DNA of 35,630 nucleotides, taken from positions 1 to 35,630 of the forward strand of contig JAKLQJ010000207.1 of NCBI GenBank assembly GCA_022013385.1, written 5' to 3'. Below the pieces are notes generated by a model, which saw nothing but the letters and a program-made list of their open reading frames with translations, was not told the DNA's origin and made no database searches. The position numbers and the translations under genes are program-made. Source of the stretch: Elusimicrobiota bacterium. GTDB lineage: Bacteria > Elusimicrobiota > Elusimicrobia > Elusimicrobiales > UBA9959. Position 1 is the first letter of the stretch, and each line of letters begins with the position of its first letter. Of this stretch, positions 10,195 through 33,879 are shown piece by piece.

Positions 10195-11124
10195 TCACTT
10201 CACAGCTTTGAGTTCACTATCGCCGTATCGCTTGATATATTCCGCCCATATTCCTTCGCAGGCATTATAAACCGCGCAACCTTTGCATCGCGCCGTTTTC
10301 TTTCTTGAAATTATTTGTCTTGAAACCAAAGCGTTCGTATTTTTAAAATCCGGCGCCCAATGTTCTGTAAAAAAAAGAATTCTTTCATTTATCTCGCTTA
10401 TATGTCTTTCATAGCCATTGAAATAACAAAGCGGAACATATCTGACCTTCCATTGTTTATAACCGCAATTAATGCCGATATCTACGGCTTTCCTCATAAA
10501 TACGCTTGCCTTTGATATTTTGGGCACAAGTTCTTTAAAATTATCGTAGGCCCCGCCATAAGTGGGGTCAACAAAAATATATTCAACATTGCGTATTTTA
10601 TATTTGGCATATAGCTCCGCTATGCGCGGTAAAAACCGCATATTCGGCTTAACAATGGTAGTATTGCCGTTTATACTTTTAAAACCAAGCTTTTTTAAAT
10701 TCTCTATTCCTTTAATCAATTCATTAAAACTGCCTTTGCTTCTGGTTAAATAATCGTGTGTTTTTGAATTATGCCCGTGTAAAGAAAAAATAAGCCCGCT
10801 AATGCCGGAATTCACTATTTTTTTAGCGGCAGAAAAATCCGAGAATATTTTTCCGTTTGTGGCGCTTAAAACCTCTTTAATCCCGATTTTTTTGGCAACT
10901 GAAATCAAGTGAGTATAATCATGTCTTATCGTGGATTCCCCGCCTATTATTTCTACAATATCCGCTTTTTTCTTTTTCGCCAGATAAATTTCTTTAATTA
11001 ATTCATCCGTTGTCTTTTCCAAAAGCTCTCGTTTATTTGAGTTTATGCAAAATCTGCAGTTATTATTACAGGAATATCCTGTAAAAAGAACAATCTTTGT
11101 TTTTTGGGGCGCGTTTTTTTTCAT
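10195..11124 (-). CDS. Radical SAM protein, HxsC-like small paralog
   Basis: 309 aa; YSCNNNCRFCINS, IIGGEST, VPLCYFNGYER...CKGCAVYNACEGIWAEYIKRYG. Confidence 0.8.
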   Translation of the reverse strand: MKKNAPQKTKIVLFTGYSCNNNCRFCINSNKRELLEKTTDELIKEIYLAKKKKADIVEIIGGESTIRHDYTHLISVAKKIGIKEVLSATNGKIFSDFSAAKKIVNSGISGLIFSLHGHNSKTHDYLTRSKGSFNELIKGIENLKKLGFKSINGNTTIVKPNMRFLPRIAELYAKYKIRNVEYIFVDPTYGGAYDNFKELVPKISKASVFMRKAVDIGINCGYKQWKVRYVPLCYFNGYERHISEINERILFFTEHWAPDFKNTNALVSRQIISRKKTARCKGCAVYNACEGIWAEYIKRYGDSELKAVK

Positions 11125-12290
11125 TAGCGAAATATACCGCCTATATCAACGATATTATTATTGAAGATAAGAAATATGGCCGCTCCCACAAATATCCACA
11201 AAGCGAACGGCCGCCCTTTTATAATTTCCACTTTTGGTTTTTCCACCTTCAATTTACCAAGCCAATCCTTTAAAATATCAATTTGTTCGGCCGTAAGTCC
11301 ATCCTTAAAGCAATCGTCAAAAGCCCCCTCAAAAACGGAATTATCTCTTAAGGTTCTCAACATCCTGGAAGATAAAACCATATGACTCTCAAGCTCCTGT
11401 GCCTCAATAAACCGAATATCTTTCTTTTCCATGATAAATTCAAACATATATCTTCCGACAAAAAGTATAACGCTAAATTTAAGAACATTCATCAGCGCAA
11501 TCATCAATAATTCCATAAGCCTGTAAGGGAAAAGGAAATAGCCCATAATAAAATACGCGCCGTATGCCGCAAGCGATATATAAACCCATTTTTTGCTTCT
11601 AAAATTTTCAGCCACTTTTTCCCATAAAAAGAAAAGAACGAAATAAATTATTTCCGTCCTCAATATAATCTTACCGAAGGTACCCTTTAATTCCATCGCG
11701 AATATCTGATGAAGCAAAAAAACAAAGCCTATGTTTATAGCGTAAAAAAATATATAAAATTTTTTTAGTCCTCCTTGCTTAGATAGAGCAATCGCTCTCT
11801 CCCGCAAAGCCTGCCATTGCGCGTTAAAAAAATCCGAGGGACTTGCCTGCCTTATACCCTCTGAAACATAATTTATAAACGCGAAAATGGCCGCCGCAAC
11901 AAAAATATTGATAAGCAAGCTTAAAAAAAGATAATGGGGAAAAGTCCTTATAAAAGGGTTTATGAGAGGAAGACAGGAACTTATCAAAATAAAAAATTTA
12001 GCATCCCCCGCAGGCCAAATTTCGCCATACCAAAGTATTATCGCGGCAAGAAGAGTCCAAGCGAAATGAATAAACCAAAGACCGTAAAAACCAATATTAA
12101 GAAAACTGTCTACCTGACCCGCATAGCCCAAATATGTATTATAAGCCATTGCCAAAAAGAATAAAGCGAAAAGTTTTATACCGAGCAGTATTTTTTTATT
12201 GAGGATTTTTTGAATTTCAAAATCTTCCTTTACAACCGCAATGCCCCAACCGGCAAAAACAATTAAGGCTATAAGAGATATTTCGTTCAT
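11124..12290 (-). CDS. Polytopic membrane protein resembling A24 (type IV prepilin) peptidases
   Basis: 388 aa, many hydrophobic segments; two candidate catalytic Asp motifs: VVKEDFEIQKILN near the N-terminus and WPAGDAKFF (compare GxGDxK). Confidence 0.55.
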   Translation of the reverse strand: MNEISLIALIVFAGWGIAVVKEDFEIQKILNKKILLGIKLFALFFLAMAYNTYLGYAGQVDSFLNIGFYGLWFIHFAWTLLAAIILWYGEIWPAGDAKFFILISSCLPLINPFIRTFPHYLFLSLLINIFVAAAIFAFINYVSEGIRQASPSDFFNAQWQALRERAIALSKQGGLKKFYIFFYAINIGFVFLLHQIFAMELKGTFGKIILRTEIIYFVLFFLWEKVAENFRSKKWVYISLAAYGAYFIMGYFLFPYRLMELLMIALMNVLKFSVILFVGRYMFEFIMEKKDIRFIEAQELESHMVLSSRMLRTLRDNSVFEGAFDDCFKDGLTAEQIDILKDWLGKLKVEKPKVEIIKGRPFALWIFVGAAIFLIFNNNIVDIGGIFR

Positions 12291-12301
12291 AATGTTAAAT
12301 A

Positions 12302-13186
12302 TTATAGAGCGCGAATTTCATCGCCGCCGAAATGTTCCGCGTAAGTTCTCATAAGTCCCAGACATTTCTTTTTCTGCGCGCATTGCCGACATTCTTTTAT
12401 ATATATTCTATCTTCCTTGGGCAAAGTAATCCACGCTCGCTCGCGAAGTTCGGCGCCCAACAAACACAACGGAAAATGATACAGCCTAAAATCCGCGAAT
12501 TTTGAAATGAGTTTAAAACTTTTGTTTATAGTTTTTGAAGATTCTTTTAAATTTAAAGCTATCCTCTTATGATTTGTTAAAGACATTCCTTCAATTTCAT
12601 AATGAACGACAATAACCTTATATTTTGATGTGTCCGGAAATTTTCTTAAAAAAAGCCGCAAAATATTATCAAAATCTTTTATATTTTGTTTGATGAGCAC
12701 GATCCTTATTTCCAGTCTTTGGCTCCGGGAAAACTTTAATATATTTTCAATGCCTTTTAACGCTTCTCTAAAACTTCCCTTTGTTTTTGTAATAGATTCA
12801 TGTTTTGCCGCGTTTGAACCATGAAGAGCGCAAGCTATTTCAAAGGGAGGTTTTGCCACGCTCATAAATTTTTTGGTAAAAACTATGTTTGAAAATTTTC
12901 TGGCATTAGTAAGCAAAACAATTTTGGTCAGAGGAACGCGTCTTCTAAAATAAGCGATAAGCTTGAAAAAATCCGGATGCAAAGTGGGCTCGCCTCCGGT
13001 TAAATTAAGAAAACTATTATCCTCGGCATTTTTTAAATAAGTTCCTCCTCTGAACAGATAATTCTCAAATTTTTTAATTTGATGCTTTAGGTCATACTGC
13101 GCGGAATCTTGATTAATAAAAGAAGCCATATTGGTGCACATTATGCATTTACTATTGCACTTATTCCAGAAAGCTATATCAGGCAT
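12302..13186 (-). CDS. Radical SAM protein, HxsC-like small paralog
   Basis: 294 aa; NKCNSKCIMCTNM, LTGGEPTLHP, FPLCLLGAE...CRQCAQKKKCLGLMRTYAEHFG; TAATG-type 1-nt overlap with upstream HxsB-like gene. Confidence 0.8.
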   Translation of the reverse strand: MPDIAFWNKCNSKCIMCTNMASFINQDSAQYDLKHQIKKFENYLFRGGTYLKNAEDNSFLNLTGGEPTLHPDFFKLIAYFRRRVPLTKIVLLTNARKFSNIVFTKKFMSVAKPPFEIACALHGSNAAKHESITKTKGSFREALKGIENILKFSRSQRLEIRIVLIKQNIKDFDNILRLFLRKFPDTSKYKVIVVHYEIEGMSLTNHKRIALNLKESSKTINKSFKLISKFADFRLYHFPLCLLGAELRERAWITLPKEDRIYIKECRQCAQKKKCLGLMRTYAEHFGGDEIRAL

Positions 13187-14604
13187 TATTCAAACCAACT
13201 TTCAAAGATTTTTTTATAACTGTCTTTTTGAAGTTTTTCCGCTATAATCTTAAAAATCCCTTTTTGCAGCCTGCACCAATCGCTATCAGCCATATTGCCC
13301 CACGGAGAGTCTTGTGTTTCATAATTATGCGCCGGACATACGCCGCAAAAAGGCTTAAAGGCGCAGCGAAAGCATTTAATCTGATTTTCAAGACATGAAG
13401 AAATAAGACATAGCTTGGACGCATCAGAGTTGAGCAATTCTTTATATGTATTCTTTCGCGCATTTCCTATTTTAAAAGAAGTATCGCCCTTTGCCGCAAT
13501 CATTCTTCCCTCATCACAAGTATAAATATCTCCGTTATAGTTATAAGCCATTTGCCCTATGCTTCCTCCGCATGGCGAGCGCAAATCCAAATAATTGGGA
13601 TCCTCTTTTTTTATGATTTTACGCAATATTATGGCGGCTGTCCGCTCAATAAATTTGCCTTTGTTTTTGTTTATCTTCAAAATATAATCCAGAGCTTTTT
13701 CATAAAACCAAATATAGTCTTTGGGGGAATATCCGATCTCTTCCCAAACTTCTTTAGCATAGCCTATAGGGGAAAGCGGACGGAGAAAAATTCCGCCAAA
13801 ACCCAAATTATAATATTCGTCCACTATTTTTTGGGGATAACCGAGAGAATATCTTGTGGTGGTCATAAGAGCCGAAGGCAAAGAATCTTTTTGCGCGCCT
13901 GATGATACTGTTTTTTTAAAAAATTTCTTCAGCCATTTAACCGTCAAATTATAAGAATTTCCGCCCAAATAAACTCTATTTTTATTATGAATAAACTCAG
14001 TGCCGTCCAGAGAAGAGCAGATAGATATATTTTCATCTGATAAAAATTTAAATTTTTCATTGTCCATTAGGCTCAAATTGGTAACAAGCGAAATAATAAG
14101 ATTTTTTCTAGCTTTTTTATTTTTCGCTTTGGCATATTTGACAGCCTTTTTTACAATCGCCCAATTCATAAGCGCTTCGCCGCCTTGAAATTCTAGGGTT
14201 ATATTCGGGTTGGGGCTTTCAAACGCCATATTTATACTTTCTTGAACAGTTTCAAAAGACATGTTCGTATTTAAAAAATCACGCTGACGGCTAACGGCTC
14301 TGCAATAAAGGCAAGTATGATTGCATTTAAGAGTTACCACTATGATGTGCAAACTCGGTCCGCCAAAGCGAAAAGGCATAAGTTTATTAAGCTGACGCGA
14401 TAATCCTTCAAAATCCAAATAATCCCTCAAAAAACCTTCTTTCTTTAAATCCTGATAGATTTTGGATTTCTCGGAAAAATTATCGTTTGAAATTTTATTA
14501 AAATCTCCGGCGCTAATCATCAGCCAATTGCCAAAATCGTTTGAAATAAAATACTTTTCTCCGATTTTTTCAAAATTTAAATTACATAAATTGCTTTTTT
14601 TCAC
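13186..14604 (-). CDS. hxsB: HxsB-like radical SAM/SPASM maturase
   Basis: 472 aa; N-terminal YFISNDFGNWLMIS, LKCNHTCLYCRA, FQGGEALMNW, CGGSIGQMAYNYNGDIYTCDEGRM, FRCAFKPFCGVCPAHNYE; GTG start preceded by AGGAGGTGG. Confidence 0.78.
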   Translation of the reverse strand: MKKSNLCNLNFEKIGEKYFISNDFGNWLMISAGDFNKISNDNFSEKSKIYQDLKKEGFLRDYLDFEGLSRQLNKLMPFRFGGPSLHIIVVTLKCNHTCLYCRAVSRQRDFLNTNMSFETVQESINMAFESPNPNITLEFQGGEALMNWAIVKKAVKYAKAKNKKARKNLIISLVTNLSLMDNEKFKFLSDENISICSSLDGTEFIHNKNRVYLGGNSYNLTVKWLKKFFKKTVSSGAQKDSLPSALMTTTRYSLGYPQKIVDEYYNLGFGGIFLRPLSPIGYAKEVWEEIGYSPKDYIWFYEKALDYILKINKNKGKFIERTAAIILRKIIKKEDPNYLDLRSPCGGSIGQMAYNYNGDIYTCDEGRMIAAKGDTSFKIGNARKNTYKELLNSDASKLCLISSCLENQIKCFRCAFKPFCGVCPAHNYETQDSPWGNMADSDWCRLQKGIFKIIAEKLQKDSYKKIFESWFE

Positions 14605-14764: not shown

Positions 14765-15667
14765 CTATTTTCTTATCGGAACAAATTCGTCCCATCCGTA
14801 AATTTTCGGATATTCCCGCCAAGGTCCTTCGCATTTTTCAAAATATAAACATTTTTTACATTTTTTATGCTTTATTTTTCCCTCATTTCTTCTGTAATCT
14901 CCGTAACTTTCAACATAAATATCGGCGTCCGACACCGGACCTTCCGGAATTATTTGTTCCGCCACGCAATTTTCATAACCTTTCATAAAACAATAAGGTA
15001 TAGCTTCGGTAAAACAATTAATGCCTTTTTTTAACCCAATATCAAGCCCTTTATGCACATATTCCATAATCAGTTTTTTTTGAGGAACTATCCATTTCTT
15101 ATTTTTCATCGCTGTCCCTATAATATGGACAAAAGCGAATTGAAAATGATCCACTTTAAGAAAAACTAATAATCTTGCTAAATCGGGCAAATTTTTATAA
15201 TTGGCAGTCGTTATAACGGTATTGGTTAAAACATGCATACCGAGTTTTTTACAATTGATTATGCCTTTGACAACCTCTTGAAAACTTCCTTGTGCATGCG
15301 TGAGCTTATCATGAATTTCGGCTTTAGAGCCATGCAATGACGGTCCCATTTCGGTAACGCCCGCTCGCTTAAGCTCAAGGCAGTAATCATAATAAGCAAA
15401 TCTCCGACCATTGGTTTGAATTTGAATGGATGAAAAACCCATTTCTTTCGCAGCTTTAACGGCATCAATAAGATGAGGATGCATCGTGGGCTCGCCTCCC
15501 GTAAAAACCGTTCCCAAAATTCCTTTTTTTCGCGCGGCTTTAAGCACAGCAATTATTTCTTTTAAAGACTTCCTCTTAATACCTTCCCTTTTATTACCTT
15601 GCGCGCAGAAATCACAATGATTATTACATTCAAATCCGATTTTAATATCTATTCTTTTCATAATCAA
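14765..15667 (-). CDS. Radical SAM protein, HxsC-like small paralog
   Basis: 300 aa; FECNNHCDFCAQG, FTGGEPTMHP, IPYCFMKGYEN...CKKCLYFEKCEGPWREYPKIYG. Confidence 0.8.
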   Translation of the reverse strand: MIMKRIDIKIGFECNNHCDFCAQGNKREGIKRKSLKEIIAVLKAARKKGILGTVFTGGEPTMHPHLIDAVKAAKEMGFSSIQIQTNGRRFAYYDYCLELKRAGVTEMGPSLHGSKAEIHDKLTHAQGSFQEVVKGIINCKKLGMHVLTNTVITTANYKNLPDLARLLVFLKVDHFQFAFVHIIGTAMKNKKWIVPQKKLIMEYVHKGLDIGLKKGINCFTEAIPYCFMKGYENCVAEQIIPEGPVSDADIYVESYGDYRRNEGKIKHKKCKKCLYFEKCEGPWREYPKIYGWDEFVPIRK

Positions 15668-15709: not shown

Positions 15710-17116
15710 CTACCCATTGTAAAGAGAAAGCCACCCTTCAAATATTTTTCTCTCGGATTTCTTATTTAATCGCTGAGATATCATATTAAAAATTCCACAA
15801 TAAATCTTGCATCTGTCATTAGTCGCCATATTCCCCCAAAATGAATTTTGGGAAGAAATATTTAACGCGGGCATTATATGACAATAAGGACTCCACGGGC
15901 AGCGAGAACATTTCGGCTGACTTAAAAAATTAAAATCGGCCAAAAGCAGAAGTTTAGCAAGAGGTTTTCTCAAAATATCGGTTAAACTGTCATTTTCAAG
16001 ATTTCCAAGTTTAAGCAAATCAATTCCCGAATTGGACAACATCCTAGCTTCATCACTGCCATAAATGCTCCCGTCAAAGTTATAAGCAATTCTTACCAAT
16101 AAATCAAGGTTATGATATCTTGGCCTTTCCGCGGTCAAAATCTGCTTTATGAACATGAAAGCGCCTTTTTCGTAAATAGGAACGCCTTTTTTATTCAAAA
16201 CAACAATATAATCAAACAGTTTATTATAGAACTTCAGAAATTCATTGGGCGAATACCCGACCTTATCCCAATTTGTTTTTGCCCTCCCCGCTTTATCCAA
16301 TGGCCCCACTTGAATTCTATTCAAGCCAATCCTTAAATGCTCATCAACTATTTCTTTTGACCGGCTTAAGGACTGCCTGCTTATAGTGCAAATTGCATTA
16401 GGCTGTTCGGTTTTACCTTTTTTAGCAAAAGAATTTATTTTTTTAAGCCATTTTGAAACTGTTTCATAAGATGATGTGTTATCTATAGGCCTCCTGTTCA
16501 AATCATGCAATCTGCGATGGCCATCAAGAGAGCCGCATATCGCGACTTTGTGTTTTAATAAAAACTCAAATTTTTTATTGTCCATCAAAGACAAATTCGT
16601 GACGATTGAAAAGTTTAGGTTTTTTTTATGAATTCTGTTTCTTTTTTCAGATTCCTTGATAATATATTCGACACCCTTGAAATTCAAAAGAGGCTCTCCG
16701 CCCTGAAATTCTACCATGAGATTTTTATTATCAATGGAAAAAATGAAATTAACCGCTTTTTTTGCGGTTTTAATTGTCATGTCGCTTTCAGATGGACTAA
16801 AAAGTCCTGAATTCGCTCCGCAGTAATGACAGAAAAAATTACATCTTTTTGTCACGCTTATGATATGGACATGGGGGCCTTTCCAATTTGTAAAAAATCT
16901 TTCCTTTATAATGCCAAAAACTTTGTCAAAATCAAGATAATTGCCAAAGAAAAAATTATTAAGCAAATCGTTCTCGGCCGACCTGCCAATCTTCTTTTTT
17001 TTTACCATGGCATAAAAATCAGACGAGCTTAAAAAACAATTTAATCCCATAAAGTTGCTTAGAAAATACCTTTTTCCAACTTTCGCAAAATTGAAATCAA
17101 ATATATTCTTTTTCAT
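15710..17116 (-). CDS. HxsB-like radical SAM paralog with degenerate SPASM region
   Basis: 468 aa; TKRCNFFCHYCGA, FQGGEPLLNF, SLDGHRRLHD; aligns with the other HxsB-like proteins but lacks several C-terminal cysteines. Confidence 0.75.
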   Translation of the reverse strand: MKKNIFDFNFAKVGKRYFLSNFMGLNCFLSSSDFYAMVKKKKIGRSAENDLLNNFFFGNYLDFDKVFGIIKERFFTNWKGPHVHIISVTKRCNFFCHYCGANSGLFSPSESDMTIKTAKKAVNFIFSIDNKNLMVEFQGGEPLLNFKGVEYIIKESEKRNRIHKKNLNFSIVTNLSLMDNKKFEFLLKHKVAICGSLDGHRRLHDLNRRPIDNTSSYETVSKWLKKINSFAKKGKTEQPNAICTISRQSLSRSKEIVDEHLRIGLNRIQVGPLDKAGRAKTNWDKVGYSPNEFLKFYNKLFDYIVVLNKKGVPIYEKGAFMFIKQILTAERPRYHNLDLLVRIAYNFDGSIYGSDEARMLSNSGIDLLKLGNLENDSLTDILRKPLAKLLLLADFNFLSQPKCSRCPWSPYCHIMPALNISSQNSFWGNMATNDRCKIYCGIFNMISQRLNKKSERKIFEGWLSLYNG

Positions 17117-22196: not shown

Positions 22197-24236
22197 TTAA
22201 TCGTTGCTCCGCTTATCAATTTCTCCGCTAAAAAGTCCCGAAGCAAGTTTTAGATTTTTTAATGCCGAAACCGCCAGATTCCTCCGCTTGCGGTCATGCA
22301 GATACATTTCCACAGAGAGCTTTTTCCACCATTTCAAAACCATAGTGTCAAAAGCTTGTTTAGAAGATAGGCTTGAACCCACTCTCTCTTTTTGAATATT
22401 TTGAACTGTTAAGCAAATATTTCCGCCGCAATCAAATGAAACACAAGCTGTAGAAGAACCGCCATTTCGCGCTAAGTAAGGAGCGCAATTTTCAATAAAA
22501 ACACCTTGCAATCCTTTCAAATATCGCCCCGTTTTTTCCAAACTTGCGCTAAATTTCAAGCAAGAATTCAATGATGCTTCCGCGGGAATTTTTATTTCCA
22601 ACCGAACAATGCTCGCCCCGCGGTAAACAATTTTTTTAATTCTGCGCTGGGGATTCTCGCCATGCATAATGTTAAGACCGCAAATGAGCCGATCTGAACC
22701 AAGTTTTTTAAGCAAATATTTAAACTTACTTCCCGCAATATTCTCAACATTTCGCACACATAAAAAAATATTGTGTTCCGCAAGAAATTCTATTTCTCCA
22801 AAGTCCAAACAATAATCGGATACTTCCGCTATAATCCGCAGTTTTTTGCCAAGCATTTTGGTTTTCATAAGAGAATAAAACACAATTTTTTCAAAAATTT
22901 CAAAAACATCGCATGAACCTGATATAAAGAAAACAAGTTCCTTGAAATTCCCTTTAGAATAAATAAAATAATCAAAAGCCTCTCTTAAATCGGCAAGTTC
23001 TCCGTATTTTTCGTTCAGTTCAACCTTTAATCGCTTAATTTCTTTGTCACATATGCGGGGAGGCAAATGTTCCATATCACCAAATTTTCTATCACGAGAA
23101 AGATCCGACATTATTCCTTCAGCCCTAAGATATTGGCCCAGTTTCTCCTCAAAAATTCTGAAGACATTTACTGTGCTGCCAAACAGCTTATCGGGGTCAA
23201 TTCCTTTTAGCTTTATGCCGAAATAAAGCAAAATGGGATTAGAAATGTATTTGGTAAGATTATAACGCTTGTCTGTTTTTCGAAGAAAGCGAGCGGCAGA
23301 AACTCGCAATCGCGCAGCTTTAATATAATCCAGTCCGGACTTAATGTCGCCTATTCTATATTTGTATCTATTTTTTCCGTAGGTTGAAACCAATCCGCAC
23401 GGATAAAAAAAACCATCGGGTCCCAGAGACACTTCTCTAAATCCCGGCAGACAGGAAAGCGCCTCTCCTCTCTCTTTCAATTGAAGAAAATCCAATCCGA
23501 AACGGAAAGTATTAAAAGACGATATTCCAGCAGGCACGAGCTCTTTGTAATAAGAAGCTAGGCGTTCCAATCCGATTTTAAGAAGTTTTAGACTCCCTGC
23601 ATCCCAGACTTCCAAATATTTCATATTGATTTGAACTTCCTTAAAATTAAGACTCCTAAGAAACTTGACATTATCGGCAATATCCATAACATTATTGCTT
23701 GTCACTGTCATGCCAACAGATATATTGCGCACCAGTTCCGTCGGTATTTTCTCCAAATTTTTCATAACTATTTCAAAAGGAGAACTCAAGCTGTTTGCGC
23801 GAAACACACGATTGCGATCATTTGATGACATAACTCCGTCCAAACTTAGCACAAGCTTAACGCCTTGTTCCAATAAACGGGAAACATTATCTTCGTTCAA
23901 GAGAATTCCATTGGTAAAAACCTCTATTTTTAACGGATATTTCACCTTTTTTCTGAGAAACCTTACGGTTTTATCCACCACAGGAAAACATAGAAACGGT
24001 TCGCCTCCGGCTATGGCTATTTTCTCTATCTTGGAAATATCCCTTCCTCTCATATAATTTTCAATTCCGGTCTTGACCTGTTCAAAAGACAAGAAAGTCG
24101 GTTTTCCGCTGTTCAGTGTTTCGTAATAACAATAACGGCATGCCATATTACAACGATTGGTGAGACAAATATCAAGAGAACAGGCCGTATGCATGCATTT
24201 TAAAGCCACATTATCGTTTTTTAAAACTTTGCTCAT
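22197..24236 (-). CDS. Large (679 aa) two-domain radical SAM protein: N-terminal rSAM plus C-terminal degenerate rSAM-like domain
   Basis: TNRCNMACRYCYYE, IAGGEPFLCF, VFTNGILL, LSLDG; C-terminal half homologous to those of the next two genes. Confidence 0.78.
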   Translation of the reverse strand: MSKVLKNDNVALKCMHTACSLDICLTNRCNMACRYCYYETLNSGKPTFLSFEQVKTGIENYMRGRDISKIEKIAIAGGEPFLCFPVVDKTVRFLRKKVKYPLKIEVFTNGILLNEDNVSRLLEQGVKLVLSLDGVMSSNDRNRVFRANSLSSPFEIVMKNLEKIPTELVRNISVGMTVTSNNVMDIADNVKFLRSLNFKEVQINMKYLEVWDAGSLKLLKIGLERLASYYKELVPAGISSFNTFRFGLDFLQLKERGEALSCLPGFREVSLGPDGFFYPCGLVSTYGKNRYKYRIGDIKSGLDYIKAARLRVSAARFLRKTDKRYNLTKYISNPILLYFGIKLKGIDPDKLFGSTVNVFRIFEEKLGQYLRAEGIMSDLSRDRKFGDMEHLPPRICDKEIKRLKVELNEKYGELADLREAFDYFIYSKGNFKELVFFISGSCDVFEIFEKIVFYSLMKTKMLGKKLRIIAEVSDYCLDFGEIEFLAEHNIFLCVRNVENIAGSKFKYLLKKLGSDRLICGLNIMHGENPQRRIKKIVYRGASIVRLEIKIPAEASLNSCLKFSASLEKTGRYLKGLQGVFIENCAPYLARNGGSSTACVSFDCGGNICLTVQNIQKERVGSSLSSKQAFDTMVLKWWKKLSVEMYLHDRKRRNLAVSALKNLKLASGLFSGEIDKRSND

Positions 24237-26326
24237 AGCGAAACCTTTGTATGATTATTAGCGCTCTCAAGGCAATGAAAAGAACTATGTCTTTCCGATT
24301 CTCGATAACATTGTTTAATATACCTACGCCCAATTCCGGAAATAAGAAGCTTTCCAATCAATTCTTTAAATTTTTTATCAAGGTTTGACTGCATAATATT
24401 TTCCGCGGTATTTTTAAAGGAACAATGAGCGCATCTGCTCGAATATCCTTTGCGAACGCAAATTTTCAATTCTCTCTCAAATACGCTCATGGTTTCACCA
24501 ATATTTGATTTTTCTCCTTCAAAACTTAAAAAACCGTTGCCATTCATTTTTAGGCGCCGAGATAAGGGACATTTAATGGCCATTTTGGATTTATCTGAAT
24601 TTTGTAATAAGCTAAGAAAATTCATAAAGAAAATGGGGCGCTCTTTATTTATAAATCGTGAAAAAACCATTTTCTTAAAATTTTCCCAGACTCGCGGACA
24701 TATACGCTTTCTTGACATTATGATAAAATGAAAAAAACCGGTCATTGCAGTTTTGCTAATTTTTATAGGCCACATTGAGCCGATTGCTTGAATCTCAATT
24801 TGAATCTTTTCAGGCCGAAGTTTTTGTAACAGCTCAGTCAGCCTTCCGCTCCTAGGCAAATTGCGGCATAATCTGAGAAAAATATCATGTTCCGCCATAA
24901 AATCCGCTTCCTGAAAATCCGGCCATTCATTTTTTACGGCTTCTATTATAATCCTTATCCTTTTTTTTAAATATTTCGCCTTAAGAAGACTATAAACACA
25001 TATTCCCTTTACATTCTCAAAGGTAGCCGAACCAAAACATCCGCTCAATATAAGTTCTTTTTCATTGCCTTGAGAATATAGCATGTTATCGACAGCCTCA
25101 CGGGCCTGCCATAATTTCAAAAATTTTCCCCTGTCCGTCATTTCTACGCGCATACATTTTATAGGCTCCGAGCATTCATTTTTTGGTTTATGAAAAAAAT
25201 CGCCAAAATCCCTGTCGGATTCTAAAAGTGCGGCAATACTGTCGCTATCCACCACTTGATGAACACTTGAAGAAGAAAGATAAAGACTTTCTCCGCTACT
25301 AAGCAATTTTACGGGATCATTTCCGATTATCCTGCTGTAAAAATAAAGATTAACGGGGCAAGCTGCATAACCCTTAAAATACGCCATAGAAAAATAATCT
25401 TTTACTTCTTTCAGAACAATTTTTATTTTTTTCAAATCTATTCCGTCTTTTAAATTTCCAAGTTTGTATAAGCTTCGGGCTGAGTCTTGCGCCGAAATAA
25501 GCCCTGTCGGATAAAAACTTCCATCCGGACCGAGAGAAAGTTCTCTAAAAGAAGGCAATCTGAGTATGGCATCCTTTTCCTCTCTTGAAAAAAGAAAATC
25601 CAGTCCCACAGGGCTTCTTCCATAGTTTTGAAAAGATTGTCCGGCCATTTTAGCGCATATGCTCTTTACTTTAAGCAAAACTCTTTCAAGAAGTTTCAAT
25701 TTAGACGGCTTCCAAATCTCAAGAATATCTATGTCTACAAGCACTTCTTTAAACCCCAATCCGGCCAAAAACTTTATATTGGTGTCCATATGTTCAACGG
25801 TTTTGGAATTAAAAGTAACTCCGGCATACATCTTTCCAACCCTTTTGGAGCCAAGTTTCCTGAGATTTGCCATAATAACATCAAAAACGGAATGAGAACT
25901 TGCCGCTCTAAAATGACGATTAATATCCGTGGTTTTTTTGTCTCCGTCAATGCTTACTATAATTTTTATCCCTTGAGACAATAAAAAATCTATTTTGTTT
26001 ACAGTCATCAATGTCCCATTCGTAAAAAGTTCTATTTCAACTTTGGGGCCAACCGCGCGGCGCGCATATTTCACCACCTTTGCCAAAAGCGGAAAATCCA
26101 AAAAAGGCTCTCCTCCTCCTATGGATATTTTTTCTATCCCGCCGCCGCGACTTTTGAGATAAAGATCCAATCCGTGCGAAATCTGTTTAAAAGAAAGTTT
26201 GACCGGTTTCGCCCGCGCTTTTGCGGACCAATAACAGTATCGGCAAGACATATTGCATATATTGGAAAGACAAATATCAAATTCGGGCGGTATGGCGGAT
26301 TGAATGACAGAATTGCTTTTTTTCAT
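24233..26326 (-). CDS. Large (697 aa) two-domain radical SAM protein
   Basis: SNICNMSCRYCYWS, IGGGEPFLDF, LFTNGTLM, VSIDG; paralog of flanking genes; 4-nt overlap with 22197-24236. Confidence 0.78.
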   Translation of the reverse strand: MKKSNSVIQSAIPPEFDICLSNICNMSCRYCYWSAKARAKPVKLSFKQISHGLDLYLKSRGGGIEKISIGGGEPFLDFPLLAKVVKYARRAVGPKVEIELFTNGTLMTVNKIDFLLSQGIKIIVSIDGDKKTTDINRHFRAASSHSVFDVIMANLRKLGSKRVGKMYAGVTFNSKTVEHMDTNIKFLAGLGFKEVLVDIDILEIWKPSKLKLLERVLLKVKSICAKMAGQSFQNYGRSPVGLDFLFSREEKDAILRLPSFRELSLGPDGSFYPTGLISAQDSARSLYKLGNLKDGIDLKKIKIVLKEVKDYFSMAYFKGYAACPVNLYFYSRIIGNDPVKLLSSGESLYLSSSSVHQVVDSDSIAALLESDRDFGDFFHKPKNECSEPIKCMRVEMTDRGKFLKLWQAREAVDNMLYSQGNEKELILSGCFGSATFENVKGICVYSLLKAKYLKKRIRIIIEAVKNEWPDFQEADFMAEHDIFLRLCRNLPRSGRLTELLQKLRPEKIQIEIQAIGSMWPIKISKTAMTGFFHFIIMSRKRICPRVWENFKKMVFSRFINKERPIFFMNFLSLLQNSDKSKMAIKCPLSRRLKMNGNGFLSFEGEKSNIGETMSVFERELKICVRKGYSSRCAHCSFKNTAENIMQSNLDKKFKELIGKLLISGIGRRYIKQCYRESERHSSFHCLESANNHTKVSL

Positions 26327-26331
26327 AATTT

Positions 26332-28458
26332 TCAGTCTTTATTTGTAAATAGGCCGGAAAAAATTTGTTTCATTTTAAGCATATCCTTAAGATATCTCTT
26401 ATTCGCCAAAAAGATTATTTTTTCAAAAATGCCGCTCAAAAACCTCTCATTAAACACAACGGTCAGGTTTTTCCGGCGGACAAGGCCGCTGCACTTTTTA
26501 CATTCGTATGACAGTGATGAAAAAGAGCATTTGGAATAATGGCTACAAAAACCGAATCCGCTTTTACCGACAAAGGTCATATCGGAACAAGGAAAAAACC
26601 CATAAACACCTTTGGCGCATAATTGCAGAAAATGATTGAACGGACATTCCGTTTTGTTTCTTTTTTTATCCAAAAAAATATCCAAATTTTTCAAAAATAT
26701 CGGCTTTAACGCCGTATTATTCTCAATTTGTTTTACCGCCGCGCCAAGACAAGAAGAAAATTCTTTGTAATTCGCTTTAGATGATTCAACGCTAAAAGAA
26801 ACAAATCCGCTTCGCAAAAGGCTTTTAAAAATACTATTCCACCGCATCCGTTTTCTTCCGGGCCTCACAATAACCGCGACAAACTCAGGTGAAATGCCTG
26901 ATGGCATATGTAAAACCTTTTCACCGTCATAAACAATCTCAAGGAATAATTGATGTTCCCGAATAAAATTACTCAAGCGTTTGTCGTATCCGCTTTTATT
27001 GAAACACACAATAAGACGAAGCTTCTTGCCAAGTTTTTCCGACTTCATCAATGCGTAAGCGGATACTGTAAAAATGAAATCGCAATCCCCTGCCGGATCC
27101 TCGATTTTAAGACGAATTTCCTTTTCATTGCCGGGAGAATAAAGCGCGAAATCAATGCCTTCTCTTACAGCGCTCAAAGAAAGCTGACCGTCCTTTCCCT
27201 TATGTCCCACTTCCACCGTTATTGTCGATATTTCCTTGTCGCTCTTGAAAACAGGGGGATGATTTAAATCTCCAAACTTACCATCTTTAATCGCGGCATT
27301 CAACGCATTATCCAAAGTTATGATACCGCCAATCTCTTCTCTGAATATGTCCGAAATCTTTCTGTCGCTTTTAAAAAATTTCGGAACATTTTTTTTCATC
27401 ATCTTACAATCAAAAAAACCGCCTACCGGGCATTGCGCGCATTCACTGGCGTCATGTTTGCCAAGAACCGAATCCACTTTTATCAGTTCTCTTCGCAATT
27501 TAAGAAGATCTATCCCGGTTCGAAAATGCCCTATTCTGTACGCTTTTCTTGATTCAGGACCCAAAGCGGGAACCGTACACGGATAGAAATATCCGTCATA
27601 ACCTAAAGCTATTTCGTCTGAAATACGAGGAATCCTGCGGCTTTTTAAATCCGGAAAATAAACAGGAAACATATAAGTCGCGCTATACGGCCAATTACCG
27701 GACATAAGTCTTTTTTTATATTCGCTTTTCAGCTGACACAATGCTTTGCGCAGGCGTTTTATTCCTTTTTTATTCCATATTTCAAACATATCCAAACCCA
27801 ATGAAATTTCTCCGAAACCAAGTTCAAGAAGACATTTCACGCTTTCAAGTAAACTGGAAACTGTTTCGGAAGTAGTGGTGGAAGATGCAACAAGACGAGA
27901 ACGCATATTAGGAGTCAAACTACGCAAATTGGATGCCACAGCATCAAAAACAGATTCCTCGGGATGATCAATAAACACTCTGTTTAGGTCATTGATTTTT
28001 TTAGCGCCGTCCAGACTCACAACTATTTTAACCCTTCGTTCCAATAAAAAAGCTACATTCTTGCGATTCAGAAAATATCCGTTGGTATAAACGCCGATTT
28101 CAAGGTCGTTTCCCGCCTTGCGCCGCAAGTATTCAATAGCCTTTTTAAGAAGTTCGTAATGCGAAAAAGGCTCCCTGCCGGCAAAATCCACTTTTCTGAC
28201 TAAAGAAAGTTCTGTGCCAAGATCAGCTACTTTATCCGACGCGGTAAGAGAAAGCCATTTATCCAAACCTTCTCTTAATTCTATCCATCTCAAAGTTTGC
28301 TGCGGCCCCCGCGCATCCATTCTGTAATAGCAATATCGACAAGCCATATTGCATTCGCTTGAAAGGCATACTTCAAGTTCGGTCGGAACAAGCATAAGAC
28401 ATGATTTAATATCACTACCCCATGCTTTTGAAGTATTATCGGCGCTAGTCATAATCAC
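26332..28458 (-). CDS. Large (708 aa) two-domain radical SAM protein
   Basis: SSECNMACRYCYYR, FAGREPFSHY (GREP instead of GGEP), VYTNGYFL, VSLDG; Cys-rich C-terminus. Confidence 0.78.
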   Translation of the reverse strand: MIMTSADNTSKAWGSDIKSCLMLVPTELEVCLSSECNMACRYCYYRMDARGPQQTLRWIELREGLDKWLSLTASDKVADLGTELSLVRKVDFAGREPFSHYELLKKAIEYLRRKAGNDLEIGVYTNGYFLNRKNVAFLLERRVKIVVSLDGAKKINDLNRVFIDHPEESVFDAVASNLRSLTPNMRSRLVASSTTTSETVSSLLESVKCLLELGFGEISLGLDMFEIWNKKGIKRLRKALCQLKSEYKKRLMSGNWPYSATYMFPVYFPDLKSRRIPRISDEIALGYDGYFYPCTVPALGPESRKAYRIGHFRTGIDLLKLRRELIKVDSVLGKHDASECAQCPVGGFFDCKMMKKNVPKFFKSDRKISDIFREEIGGIITLDNALNAAIKDGKFGDLNHPPVFKSDKEISTITVEVGHKGKDGQLSLSAVREGIDFALYSPGNEKEIRLKIEDPAGDCDFIFTVSAYALMKSEKLGKKLRLIVCFNKSGYDKRLSNFIREHQLFLEIVYDGEKVLHMPSGISPEFVAVIVRPGRKRMRWNSIFKSLLRSGFVSFSVESSKANYKEFSSCLGAAVKQIENNTALKPIFLKNLDIFLDKKRNKTECPFNHFLQLCAKGVYGFFPCSDMTFVGKSGFGFCSHYSKCSFSSLSYECKKCSGLVRRKNLTVVFNERFLSGIFEKIIFLANKRYLKDMLKMKQIFSGLFTNKD

Positions 28459-28658: not shown

Positions 28659-29786
28659 TTAATCTTCTCTACCCAAAATTTTCTTGACGCGCTTGTTTAT
28701 TTCTTTCAATTCCTTTTCCCTTTCTTGTTTTTGTTTTTGTTTTATTGTCTCCAATTCCCTTTTCTTTTCTTGCGCCTGTTTTATTTTTTCAAATTCCTTT
28801 TCCTTTTCTTTCGCCTGTTTTATTTTCTCTCTTTCAGCCATTATCTTTTTGTATTTTTGTAAATTTTCGCAATACAAAAAGCTCAATCTTTTAGCGATAG
28901 GCTCGCAACTTTTGGAATTATGATTTTCAAAAGCTTCGCAAATCTCTTTGTAGCCCTCAGGGCAATCTTTCGGCCTTGAATTTTTTATCGCCTTATAAAT
29001 CTGCAAGTTGTCCATACAAATTTTGGAACTCTCCCCCTCACAATCTTTTTTATTCTTGGGAAAAGTTTTAAGACAAAGACTGTTAGCGGGGAGATATTTT
29101 GAAATTGAAGAACAAATATTTTCCATGCCATTTGAAGCGACGGAGCAAAAATCACTAATCGGAACGCTCAAATCTTCCATATCCATAAACTCGGCAGTTA
29201 TGAATGCGTGGCAAGTTCCTTCATCTTTATGTTTGCCGGCCATATAGCCTGCGAACATTACGCGACTAGACATACCCCTGCATATACCTCTCAAACTCCT
29301 GTCCTTGTCATCTAATTCATCCTCCGGGGTTAATATTTTTCGGGGAAGAGATATGATATTGGGGTCTGTTGACGAATTACAAAGGCGCATATCGCCAGAA
29401 GACGCGGCTTGGCAAGAGAAATAACTACTGATAAGCTTATACATCTCGGAATCTTCTCTCAAAAAATAATTTTCTCCGATATCGGCATCACCCCAAATCT
29501 TTCCGTAGGAAGACATGATATCTCTCAAAGAACCTTCTTTGCAAACGCCTTTCGTATTCTTTAAACCGGGAGAATCACTGTCTTCCAAACCTGTTAAATC
29601 GCGAGTCATCGCATCAAGAGCTTCTATATGGTCAGTAGCATCAGGCGGCAAAGAAACACCTGCCGGTTCAACATAAGCCTTTTGCGCCGTTTGCTTTTCA
29701 TGGCCATAATATTTTCTCTGCATTATCTGCAAAGCGGCTAAAAAAGCAAGTATCACGACAATAATTAAAATAAGCCATTTATTCAC
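28659..29786 (-). CDS. Cys-rich membrane-anchored hypothetical protein with coiled-coil tail
   Basis: 375 aa; N-terminal hydrophobic segment MNKWLILIIVVILAFLAALQ, about 14 Cys in the middle, charged K/E/Q heptad-like C-terminus. Confidence 0.7.
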   Translation of the reverse strand: MNKWLILIIVVILAFLAALQIMQRKYYGHEKQTAQKAYVEPAGVSLPPDATDHIEALDAMTRDLTGLEDSDSPGLKNTKGVCKEGSLRDIMSSYGKIWGDADIGENYFLREDSEMYKLISSYFSCQAASSGDMRLCNSSTDPNIISLPRKILTPEDELDDKDRSLRGICRGMSSRVMFAGYMAGKHKDEGTCHAFITAEFMDMEDLSVPISDFCSVASNGMENICSSISKYLPANSLCLKTFPKNKKDCEGESSKICMDNLQIYKAIKNSRPKDCPEGYKEICEAFENHNSKSCEPIAKRLSFLYCENLQKYKKIMAEREKIKQAKEKEKEFEKIKQAQEKKRELETIKQKQKQEREKELKEINKRVKKILGRED

Positions 29787-30074: not shown

Positions 30075-30458
30075 CTAACACCAACCTCCACGGGCATGTG
30101 AGCCGTGTGAGCCGTGTGAGCCATGCGAGCCATGCGAACCATGCGAACCATGAGAACCATGAGAACCGTGAGAACCGTGAGAGCCATGAGAGCTATGAGA
30201 GCCATGAGAAGCATGAGAACCGTGTGAGCCGTGTGAGCCGTGAGAGCCATGACTTTGATGGCTTACATGATAGTTCGATTTGAAATAATTTGAATGAATC
30301 GCGGCATGAGTCACACTCGCATCCATTATAGCTCCGCCAAGAATTCCAAGAGCGAGACCGGTTTTAACAATATCCGAATCAAGCATCTTGCCTTCTTCAC
30401 TGCTCAAAAACATTTTTATGTTTTTGCTTATTCTGTTTTTTTTATTTTTTTTGTCCAT
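30075..30458 (-). CDS. hxsA: HxsA-like His-Xaa-Ser repeat precursor protein
   Basis: 127 aa; FLSSEEGK..., hydrophobic segment, then 19 HxS tripeptides (15 HGS plus HVS, HQS, HAS, HSS), ending HARGGWC; AAGGAACAGGGG upstream of ATG. Confidence 0.88.
   Translation of the reverse strand: MDKKNKKNRISKNIKMFLSSEEGKMLDSDIVKTGLALGILGGAIMDASVTHAAIHSNYFKSNYHVSHQSHGSHGSHGSHGSHASHGSHSSHGSHGSHGSHGSHGSHGSHGSHGSHGSHGSHARGGWC
30096..30269 (-). repeat. 9-bp coding repeat encoding His-Xaa-Ser
   Basis: 20 in-phase His codons spaced exactly 9 bp, with synonymous variation among CAC/CAT, TCA/TCG/TCT, GGC/GGT. Confidence 0.95.
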
Positions 30459-30610
30459 AAAAACCCCTGTTCCTTCTCTAAAAGTTTTCTTCCGCGCTTA
30501 CTGCTCATTTCAACTATTTTGCCTTTTTCCGCCTAAAACTTTTCCTCTTCATTCAGGTTTTCTATATTCGCCTTTTTCAATTTTCCAAAACTTTTTTCTA
30601 ATAATCAACC

Positions 30611-30916
30611 TCATTGCATATGCTCTCCGGCCGCAGATAGCAGAGCCTTTGTCACTATTATTTTGGAAATCCGAGAATTTTTTTTAGTTAAATCTATTCT
30701 GCATTGCTGGTTTAAAATCTCATTGATAAAGTCATCGGCCATGTTTCCTTCATTTGATTCATTCGCTTTGAATTTAATTTCAACTTTTCCGCTTTTAATT
30801 TTGCGCCTTATATCTGCCCTATCCGCATAAATATAAGTAGCCAAAGCAATAGCCTCTTCGGAATATATATCCCCGTCAAGGATAAATGTTTTAATATCAC
30901 TGTCGTTTTTTTTCAT
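30611..30916 (-). CDS. hxsD: HxsD-like protein
   Basis: 101 aa; ...YSEEAIALATYIYADRADIRRK... FINEILNQQCRIDLTKKNSRISKIIVTKALLSA resembles the HxsD layout (LLNDYxLRE-type motif); AGAGGTG upstream of ATG; adjacent to hxsA. Confidence 0.65.
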   Translation of the reverse strand: MKKNDSDIKTFILDGDIYSEEAIALATYIYADRADIRRKIKSGKVEIKFKANESNEGNMADDFINEILNQQCRIDLTKKNSRISKIIVTKALLSAAGEHMQ

Positions 30917-30954
30917 CCTATCACCTCTTTAACTACTCATGATCAACAATTCAA

Positions 30955-31078
30955 AGTTTAGAGTTTTTTCTCTCAACTCCTAAACTCTTTCCCGCCACTA
31001 CAGCGTCGGCGGGTCTCTGCCACTGAATCTTCGGCAGACGCACCAATGTAGTAGTGGAGAACGCCAAAGAAGTAATGG
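30955..31078. repeat. Cluster of short palindromes between hxsB and hxsD
   Basis: AGTTTAGAGTT/AACTCcTAAACT (30955-30986), CCCGCC-11nt-GGCGGG (30991-31013), TCTGCC-11nt-GGCAGA (31016-31038), and CGCCA-9nt-TGGCG further on. Confidence 0.75.
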
Positions 31079-31089
31079 CGGAAAACTCT

Positions 31090-32568
31090 TTAACTCTCAA
31101 CTGTTTTTTGCACCCATTTCCTTAAAATAGCCGCTTCCTTAGGTTTAGCAAGCAATTCGAATATCGCGTCAAATATACCCATAAACAATTTGCATCTTTC
31201 ATTGGACGGCATATTGCCCCAAAGATTTTGCTGAGTTTCATAATTATAAACCGGACAAACTCCGCAAAAAGGCTTATACGCGCAACGAAAGCATAAAGGC
31301 TGTTGTTCAAGATTTGAAGACAAAACACAGCTTTTAGTTACCGGACTGCCCATAACAGATAAATATGTATCTTTAAAAACATTGCCCGTTTTAAATATTT
31401 CATCTCCGCTCCAGCCTATCATTCTTCCTTCATCACAAGTATATAAATCGCCGTTATGATTATAGGCGAGCTGACCTATTGAAGCTCCGCAAGGGCATCT
31501 CATGTCAAGATAGCCTGGATCATGAGCATTCAATACTTTATCCAATATCATCATGGCCGTTTTTTCTCTTATAACCTTCTTGGCATTAAGCCGAACTATG
31601 TGATTGAGAGCTTTTCTATAAAAAGAAATGAAATCATCCGCCGAATAACCGATAATATCCCAATATTTTTTCGCATATCCTATCGGCGCCAAAGGCCTTA
31701 TAAAAATATCTTCCAACCCTTGTTTAACATATTCGTCTACGATTTTCTCGCCGCTGGCAAGAGAGTTTTTTGAAACCGTAAGAAGAGCGCTGGGTTTAAA
31801 TATTCTATAATTTTCATTCTGTCTGTCATGCCTAGCATTAAAATATTTCAACCATTTAATCGTCACATCATATGAACTTGCTTTGCGGAACATTCTATTT
31901 TTATCGTGAATACTTTTGGGGCCGTCCAAAGAAGTGCAAATAGAAACTTCATGTTCCATTAAAAACCGCGCTTTTTCTTCGGTCATTAAAGAGAAATTGG
32001 AAACCAAAGCAAGAATTAAACCTTTTTTTAATTTTTTTTCCACACTTCTGGCATATATCACGGTTTTTTTGAGAACATCCCAATTTAAAAGCGGCTCTCC
32101 CCCTTGAAATTCTATCGTTATTGAAGGATTTGGACTTTTGAAAGCAAAATCCACACTGGCCTTGGCGGTTTTAAATGACATATCCGTATTTTTTTTAGAA
32201 GAATCAACCGCGCTCGACTGGCAATATACGCAGGTATGATTGCACCTTAATGTCATGACAAGAATATGCAGCCCCGCTCCGCCAAACAAATAACTATTCG
32301 CGCTTCTCCATCTCGCGGACAAATTGTCAAAATTCATGCGAGTCCTGATAAAACCTTTTTCAGCCAAACTCTCAAAAATCTTGGATTTTTCAGGCAATTT
32401 GGATTTAAGCCACTTATCAAATTCAAGAGGCTTCAAATACTTAAAATTACCGAAATCGTTAACTAAAAGATATTTTCCGGGAAATCTCCGCCAACGACTA
32501 TCGGGAATAACTCCATAAGCGCGACGAGCTTTCGCTTTATTTTTTGTTCTTTTTGTTTTTACCGGCAT
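31090..32568 (-). CDS. hxsB: HxsB-like radical SAM/SPASM maturase
   Basis: 492 aa; YLLVNDFGNFKYL, LRCNHTCVYCQS, FQGGEPLLNW, CPCGASIGQLAYNHNGDLYTCDEGRM, FRCAYKPFCGVCPVYNYE. Confidence 0.82.
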   Translation of the reverse strand: MPVKTKRTKNKAKARRAYGVIPDSRWRRFPGKYLLVNDFGNFKYLKPLEFDKWLKSKLPEKSKIFESLAEKGFIRTRMNFDNLSARWRSANSYLFGGAGLHILVMTLRCNHTCVYCQSSAVDSSKKNTDMSFKTAKASVDFAFKSPNPSITIEFQGGEPLLNWDVLKKTVIYARSVEKKLKKGLILALVSNFSLMTEEKARFLMEHEVSICTSLDGPKSIHDKNRMFRKASSYDVTIKWLKYFNARHDRQNENYRIFKPSALLTVSKNSLASGEKIVDEYVKQGLEDIFIRPLAPIGYAKKYWDIIGYSADDFISFYRKALNHIVRLNAKKVIREKTAMMILDKVLNAHDPGYLDMRCPCGASIGQLAYNHNGDLYTCDEGRMIGWSGDEIFKTGNVFKDTYLSVMGSPVTKSCVLSSNLEQQPLCFRCAYKPFCGVCPVYNYETQQNLWGNMPSNERCKLFMGIFDAIFELLAKPKEAAILRKWVQKTVES

Positions 32569-33016
32569 ATTTTTCTTCCCATGTTTGGTTTATTTTTAAC
32601 GGATCCTGCTTCTTGCAGTCTGAAGATTCCTTTTTTATTTCTTTCTCCACCTGACTGATAAGCTCATCCAGCTCTTTTTCCTGCTCAGGAGTCAAACCTG
32701 CATCTTCCGCTTGCGGTTGCGATTTTTCTTCATAAGACAATGCTTTGAGAATTAAAAACTCTCTAAGCTCTGAATTATTTTTAAATATGTCCGCGCGAAT
32801 CTTTTCGTTTTTAAGCTCCTCTGTAAACCGCATTGCCGTCTTTTTAACGGAATTTCTGCCCTTTTGTTTAAGAGAAACCTCAATTATCTTAGAGCTCAGT
32901 TTCTTTAATAAAACATACGCCTCATCCGTAACGGAATAAGCGGCATATCTTATATTATCCAAGGGATACTCCCGTAAATTGGATTTTAATAAAATTTTCT
33001 CTTTTGAATGTTTCAA
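32537..33016 (-). CDS. Second HxsD-like protein (long form)
   Basis: 159 aa with TTG start at 33014-33016 behind AAGGAGA; IRYAAYSVTDEAYVLLKKLSSKIIEVSLKQKG...RFTEELKNEKIRADIFKNNSELREFLILKALS resembles HxsD. The ATG at 33076 in the ORF track would overlap the upstream CDS. Confidence 0.6.
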   Translation of the reverse strand: MKHSKEKILLKSNLREYPLDNIRYAAYSVTDEAYVLLKKLSSKIIEVSLKQKGRNSVKKTAMRFTEELKNEKIRADIFKNNSELREFLILKALSYEEKSQPQAEDAGLTPEQEKELDELISQVEKEIKKESSDCKKQDPLKINQTWEEKYAGKNKKNKK

Positions 33017-33039
33017 TTTTTCTCTCCTTAAATCGCTAT

Positions 33040-33879
33040 TTACTGAATCCTGCAACATAACATCTGCCCATTCCAATCTTGACCAAGGGATATAAGACTT
33101 CCAACGCCTCCGCCCTCACCAGATGCCGGCAAAAATCCCACTACTCTGGGCCAACCGTCACCATACAGAGCAAAAACTCTTTCATTGGCCGCGCAGAATG
33201 TAGTTGCGGCCGCAACAGTATAATCCCTAAGCGTGCACATTCCTGTAAGTATGCCGGACATATAAACATTACCAGCGCCGCCTGTACTAGCATCATTGAC
33301 TGACATCACAAGGGAAGCCATATTATAATCACTATAGAATCTCATGCCGTTATAGCTAGCATTAGCCCCAAACTTGATGCCTGTATGGAATGCTATCCTA
33401 AGATCAGGATAGGGATTAGACCATGCGCCCGCTTCTCTATATATTCCATAGGCATCACCGGCATGCCAATAAATTCCGGCTGTTGAATCGGTGGCAACAC
33501 TTCCTGCTTGCGTTAAAGATATTTGACCTCTAACAGCATCTGTGCCACCGATATGAAGCGTTCGCGCAGGATTTACCTCTTTAATGCCGACTCTGCCCGA
33601 TGTGTTGAACAGGACATTCCCCGCCCCTTCTACATGTAGTTTTCCGGCCGGCGTCGCTATCCCAATTCCAACATTACCGCTATCTCTCGCCAAAACAGTC
33701 TGGTCCGTAGTGAGAAGCTTGGCATATCCGCCATACGGAGATGGATAGTATGTGGTAAGGGTCAATTGTTCACAGCCCAAAATCTTAGGATGGAAACAAA
33801 TAAAGAACGCCGTCAAAAGCGCCAATGCTTTGAACCTTGTTAGTTGAAATTGAATAATCAGAATTTTTTTATTTTCCAT
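33040..33879 (-). CDS. Secreted fibre/adhesin-like protein with NVGIG repeats
   Basis: 279 aa; N-terminal hydrophobic export signal, LTLTTYYPSPYGGYAKL, GNVGIGIATPAGKLHV, GRVGIKEVNPARTLHIGG, C-terminal CTLRDYT...MLCCRI. Confidence 0.7.
   Translation of the reverse strand: MENKKILIIQFQLTRFKALALLTAFFICFHPKILGCEQLTLTTYYPSPYGGYAKLLTTDQTVLARDSGNVGIGIATPAGKLHVEGAGNVLFNTSGRVGIKEVNPARTLHIGGTDAVRGQISLTQAGSVATDSTAGIYWHAGDAYGIYREAGAWSNPYPDLRIAFHTGIKFGANASYNGMRFYSDYNMASLVMSVNDASTGGAGNVYMSGILTGMCTLRDYTVAAATTFCAANERVFALYGDGWPRVVGFLPASGEGGGVGSLISLGQDWNGQMLCCRIQ

Follow-up and report, generated by a model that had tools for sequence, protein, structure and literature searches.

The locus examined here raises the question of why one HxsB maturase should be flanked by two HxsD-like proteins. 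Hxs systems occur in many phyla. The systems comprising HxsA, HxsB, HxsC and HxsD are credited to Haft and Basu as cited in PMC9062424, and the HxS peptides are putatively dependent on HxsB and HxsC for their maturation (PMC9062424). A literature search found no paper on HxsD function and nothing on radical SAM clusters of Elusimicrobia. The window, i.e. the whole stretch of DNA that was analysed, is a complete contig of 35.6 kb from an uncultured member of the Elusimicrobiota. The genes for HxsA, the short HxsD paralogue (D-S), HxsB and the long HxsD paralogue (D-L) are all intact ORFs on the minus strand within 30075-33016 (Table 1). D-L lies directly upstream of HxsB and overlaps its start by 32 bases, and D-S is the next gene downstream of HxsB. 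The mechanical ORF of D-L is 179 aa long and begins at a TTG farther upstream; the TTG at 33016 is preceded by AAGGAGAG, and the 159 aa of the original prediction are therefore correct. Likewise, exactly 19 HxS units were counted in HxsA, as predicted, and its HARGGWC end was confirmed. The genome of the window holds only two HxsD matches (D-L and D-S), three HxsB and one HxsA4 match. The two conserved neighbours in Table 1 are counted over the 59 loci read in the family of the window (f1; 58 plus the window itself); c3 has no Pfam or NCBIfam match, and c9 no confident family match in the same search.

Table 1. Features of the window, with coordinates, strand and the evidence for each.
Feature	Coordinates	Strand	Characteristics and evidence
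HxsC-like radical SAM protein	12302..13186	-	TIGR03977 154.3 bits, E 3e-45; cut-off 267.9 not reached
Second HxsB (B3), then HxsC; no HxsD adjoining	13186..14604	-	TIGR03978 486.2 bits; HxsB tree
Third HxsB (B2p clade), fewer SPASM cysteines; no HxsD adjoining	15710..17116	-	TIGR03978 369.2 bits, just under cut-off 370; HxsB tree
Conserved neighbour c9, near HxsA and D-S	28659..29786	-	375 aa; 18/59 loci
HxsA precursor, HxsA4 type	30075..30458	-	127 aa; 19 HxS units; C-terminal HARGGWC; NF038313 77.2 bits
D-S, short HxsD paralogue	30611..30916	-	101 aa; with NE-x-L-N-Q; without R84; without C-terminal tail; AF2 pLDDT 88.5
HxsB radical SAM/SPASM maturase (B1), between both HxsD	31090..32568	-	492 aa; TIGR03978 475.1 bits
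D-L, long HxsD paralogue	32537..33016	-	159 aa; with R84 and DPLxI..TWEEKY tail; N65 and hydrophobic-68 lost; added helix 110-134; AF2 pLDDT 84.7
Likely ribosome-binding site of D-L, AAGGAGAG	33022..33029	-	sequence context, 5' of TTG start
Conserved neighbour c3	33040..33879	-	279 aa; N-terminus looks secreted; as a rule immediately upstream of D-L; 38 members, 34/59 loci

D-S and D-L are both HxsD homologues. D-S scores 53.6 bits with TIGR03976, above the NCBIfam cut-off for HxsD (50 bits), and D-L is a clear homologue (40.8 bits, E 2.1e-10) under this curated cut-off; no NCBIfam model is matched by D-L above its cut-off. The HxsD-like model NF038315 weakly matches D-S (29.2 bits), although under its cut-off of 41 bits, and does not match D-L. 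Direct comparison of the two proteins with hhalign, from alignments without common sequences, gave a probability of 97% (E 1e-10), and the same type of comparison related each of them to canonical HxsD (D-S, E 6e-12; D-L, E 3e-13). The motif proposed in the original prediction fits both proteins (DFINEILNQQCRIDL..KAL and RFTEELKNEKIRADI..KAL), and both are encoded beside HxsB, the gene context of an HxsD. Of the remaining core genes, HxsA exceeds the NF038313 cut-off of 55 bits in addition to carrying its HxS units, and HxsB exceeds the TIGR03978 cut-off of 370 bits and has an intact CxxxCxxC motif and intact SPASM cysteines. The HxsC cut-off (TIGR03977, 267.9 bits) is reached nowhere in the window, the best score being that of the protein at 12302-13186. 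As in the HxsA4/HxsC4 subtype (NF038313, NF038332), the HxsA of the window passes the HxsA4 cut-off and HxsC4 is the best-scoring model for several of its radical SAM proteins, but these scores (at most 138.1 bits, at 14765-15667) are far under the HxsC4 cut-off of 500 bits. The window shares with canonical Hxs systems an HxS-repeat precursor, an HxsB maturase and an HxsD immediately upstream of HxsB. It differs in having two HxsD per HxsB, where the canonical order HxsD-HxsB-HxsC has one, and in its HxsC-like proteins, which are under the cut-off and the best of which is about 18 kb away.

The HxsD pair recurs as a conserved variant of the known Hxs system and is not confined to one genome. 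A search for HxsD in relatives was positive in 53 of 101 genomes, all of f1 and most with two matches about 1.9 kb apart; in one further case (G021; L140, 8419-10848) both HxsD were missed by TIGR03976 and recovered with better models. Both paralogues are present in 47 f1 loci of the D-L/HxsB/D-S type; D-S occurs alone in one, at a contig end, and D-L never occurs alone. The arrangement is found in all 48 untruncated f1 loci of this type (G021 counted), and a further 11 f1 loci have an ordinary, single HxsD. Including the window, D-S has 48 family members and D-L 47. A contig scan with the window HxsB returned one near-identical locus only. Sixteen Hxs loci from outside (plasmids; Pseudomonadota, Bacteroidota, Cyanobacteriota and Spirochaetota; L134-L139 and L143-L152) have the order HxsD-HxsB-HxsC, with HxsD upstream of HxsB wherever it was recovered; the 14 HxsD recovered are all single, and in two plasmid loci (L147 and L150) no HxsD was found with the profiles used. 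The pair was originally called unusual, which holds against other phyla (14/14 single) and fails within f1, where it is the rule. Three sister families (f12, f14 and f15), which belong to the same class, have a larger array, HxsC-D0a-D0b-B0-D-L-B1-D-S-B2-HxsA. D0a and D0b form a second pair of L-type and S-type, side by side in f14 and f15, and look as if they had been duplicated as a pair; the limits given for each of them are approximate, since some of the small genes share GC-rich DNA with other reading frames.

The two paralogues have lost complementary features of the single HxsD. In the joint HxsD alignment (positions in D-S numbering), a hydrophobic residue at position 68 is present in 13/14 canonical and 17/17 single Elusimicrobiota HxsD (together 30/31) and in 63/63 D-S, and is absent from all 62 D-L. 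Arginine 84 is present in the same proportions of canonical and single Elusimicrobiota HxsD (13/14 and 17/17, together 30/31) and in 56/62 D-L, and is absent from all 63 D-S. R73 is retained in nearly all HxsD. Position 65 is conserved in only 4/14 canonical HxsD, which leaves 68 and 84 as the losses to be counted from a general ancestor. The DPLGI..WE (WEEKY) tail is found in 11/11 f1 single HxsD and about 40/48 D-L entries, compared with 0/48 D-S. The same division into L-type and S-type residues is seen in D0a and D0b. Positions 68 and 84 both lie in the long C-terminal helix, equidistant from residue 76, a placement that antiparallel packing of two such helices would lead one to expect.

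A heterodimer is proposed mainly because the two features are united in the single HxsD and divided between the members of the pair. The best explanation, to which we give an even chance, is that the single HxsD of the Hxs locus has been replaced by specialised D-L and D-S, most likely a heterodimer acting with the HxsB encoded between them. The ordinary HxsD would be a self-pairing adaptor. After duplication each paralogue would have kept one side of the common interface, D-S contributing hydrophobic-68 and D-L contributing R84. The tail of D-L may dock HxsB or the substrate, and the D-L:D-S pair would hand HxsB the HxS-repeat region of HxsA, to be modified by radical chemistry. The genome G012 (96% complete, 30 contigs) has D-L, D-S, HxsA and a single HxsB, and thus two HxsD can serve one HxsB; this speaks against one HxsD per HxsB, though the sister families alternate HxsD and HxsB genes. 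In f1 both HxsD always flank one HxsB. The HxsB tree places the HxsB at 31090-32568 in one clade together with its counterparts from f1, and the two other HxsB of the window in two further clades without HxsD neighbours, except in one rearranged locus (L043). In a mirror-tree analysis the correlation of D-L and D-S distances after correction for HxsB was 0.26, no better than the controls (0.10-0.30), and it is therefore not used as support. The gene tree leaves the D-L of f1 and f15 unjoined, a point against this reading, although their joining is not rejected (AU p 0.39).

The strongest competing explanation, rather unlikely in our judgement, is that of two maturation complexes, in which each HxsD serves a different HxsB (D-L with B1, D-S with an HxsB elsewhere) and HxsA is processed in two steps. 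It draws on the order D-L-B1-D-S-B2-HxsA of f12, f14 and f15, where an HxsB directly follows each HxsD, as it does in canonical loci, on the f15 B2, which forms a clade of its own and adjoins D-S, on the three HxsB of the window, and on B1 distances that correlate with those of both D-L and D-S. That D-S is followed by its own HxsB in the sister families counts against a joint pair and fits separate partners, which are possible in f15. That D-S simply belongs to B2 was considered and rejected, since it agrees with f12, f14 and f15 but not with f1. Within f1, no HxsB follows D-S except in L043, the distal HxsB lack an HxsD, and the extra HxsB are not orthologous to the f15 B2 in the tree; G012, moreover, keeps both HxsD with one HxsB. 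The complementary losses, the strict co-occurrence, G012 and the extra HxsB without HxsD are together better fitted by a joint D-L:D-S unit. The original prediction had offered either two complexes or a discriminator for different HxsB or HxsC partners, and is borne out in part. The joint unit fits better than the first; the second finds real support in the alternating genes of f12, f14 and f15.

The AF2 models of D-L and D-S, built from alignments with the plasmid proteins left out, have confident cores (pLDDT in Table 1) with the common order b-a-b-b-a. The search with the HxsD model that had been suggested as a check is significant for both proteins and the two share one predicted fold, so neither outcome named beforehand as speaking against the pair (no significant hit, unrelated folds) was obtained. 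A profile search of the sequences of solved structures with D-L and D-S gave nothing significant. Foldseek against the PDB most often gave Pcc1, Pcc2 and Gon7 of KEOPS as neighbours, and with D-L also Rpb11/RpoL-like proteins, none of them significant (E 0.02-0.3, TM mostly 0.4-0.55). Pcc1/Pcc2/Gon7 and the Rpb11/RpoL-type polymerase subunits are all small dimerising subunits, and Pcc1 forms a heterodimer with its paralogue Pcc2 (PMC9889334). The likeness to the HxsD pair consists in a similar predicted b-a-b-b-a fold and the same proposed path, in which a dimerising subunit is duplicated to give a heterodimer. The differences are that Pcc1 and Pcc2 have no detectable sequence relation to HxsD, that the fold match is not significant, and that KEOPS acts in tRNA modification. 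The comparison is thus an analogy and not proof of homology.

That the two HxsD divide the work without forming a heterodimer, one binding the HxsA leader and the other passing the substrate on to HxsB or an HxsC-like enzyme, is doubtful. It would account for D-S adjoining HxsA in some loci and HxsC in others, and for the extra helix and tail of D-L that D-S lacks, but a common interface is the better explanation of complementary losses that fall in one helix, and neither HxsD model resembles the leader-binding RRE/PqqD fold. That HxsD is itself an RRE/PqqD-like protein finds no support in the models: their order is b-a-b-b-a, and neither has a PqqD in its top 50 PDB matches. Neutral duplication, with one HxsD redundant or decaying, is very improbable: the D-L of one genome (G020; L049, 10490-10986) is out of frame in its C-terminal part with no HxsA nearby, through possible decay or a sequence error, but both paralogues are conserved across f1, with group-specific invariant residues and strict co-occurrence.

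The C-terminal end of HxsA varies with the third HxsB. HxsA ends in RGGWC in all 26 f1 genomes with a B2p-clade HxsB and in none of the 20 with the HxsD pair but without B2p, where it ends in HGSY (20/20); B2p was assigned by the HxsB tree or, for unread loci, by a lower TIGR03978 score. One genome (G049) has both HxsA forms, and in another (G004) two short HxsB fragments do not permit clade assignment. In the HxsB1 tree RGGWC and B2p change in concert at least three times, independently and with support; these events are too few for a claim of significance, and further genes of the module may vary along with them. That RGGWC goes with the HxsD pair was rejected, as 20 genomes with the pair lack this end. 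In an outside case from f15 (L132), RGGWC occurs with a single HxsD. The RGGWC end is probably handled by the HxsB at 15710-17116, and not by the HxsB between the HxsD pair. Three extra SPASM cysteines are present in f1 B1 and B3 and in the HxsB of single-HxsD loci, and are absent from canonical HxsB (L134-L139), most f15 B1 and B2, and the B2p enzymes. B0, the first HxsB of the f12/f14/f15 array (L117, 6966-8714; L122, 6590-8542; and similar), has lost CxxxCxxC in 11/12 cases and kept the SPASM cysteines, and is likely an inactive radical SAM protein encoded next to an HxsD pair. In all, the contig has 19 radical SAM genes (333-32568), among them three HxsB, several HxsC-like proteins, one PapB-like protein and HemN-like proteins. 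At 22197-28458 three radical SAM genes lie in tandem, whose products are about 680-710 aa long and have long C-terminal parts of unassigned kind, and a membrane-like protein of 388 aa (11124-12290), without a Pfam match, is kept in 14 loci and often adjoins HxsC.

A fuller account can be put forward tentatively, as something short of probable. HxsD would be a dimerising adaptor, the homodimer of which has become in Elusimicrobiota an obligate D-L:D-S heterodimer, with one half-interface kept by each partner and the same split repeated as D0a-D0b beside a dead HxsB; separately, the RGGWC end would be the substrate of the dedicated HxsB at 15710-17116. The near-perfect match between an extra HxsB and a short end motif of HxsA makes the two a candidate enzyme-substrate pair. 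The apparent splitting of HxsD into complementary halves turns the dimeric adaptor into a testable idea, with residues 68, 73 and 84 and the WEEKY tail as the named positions.
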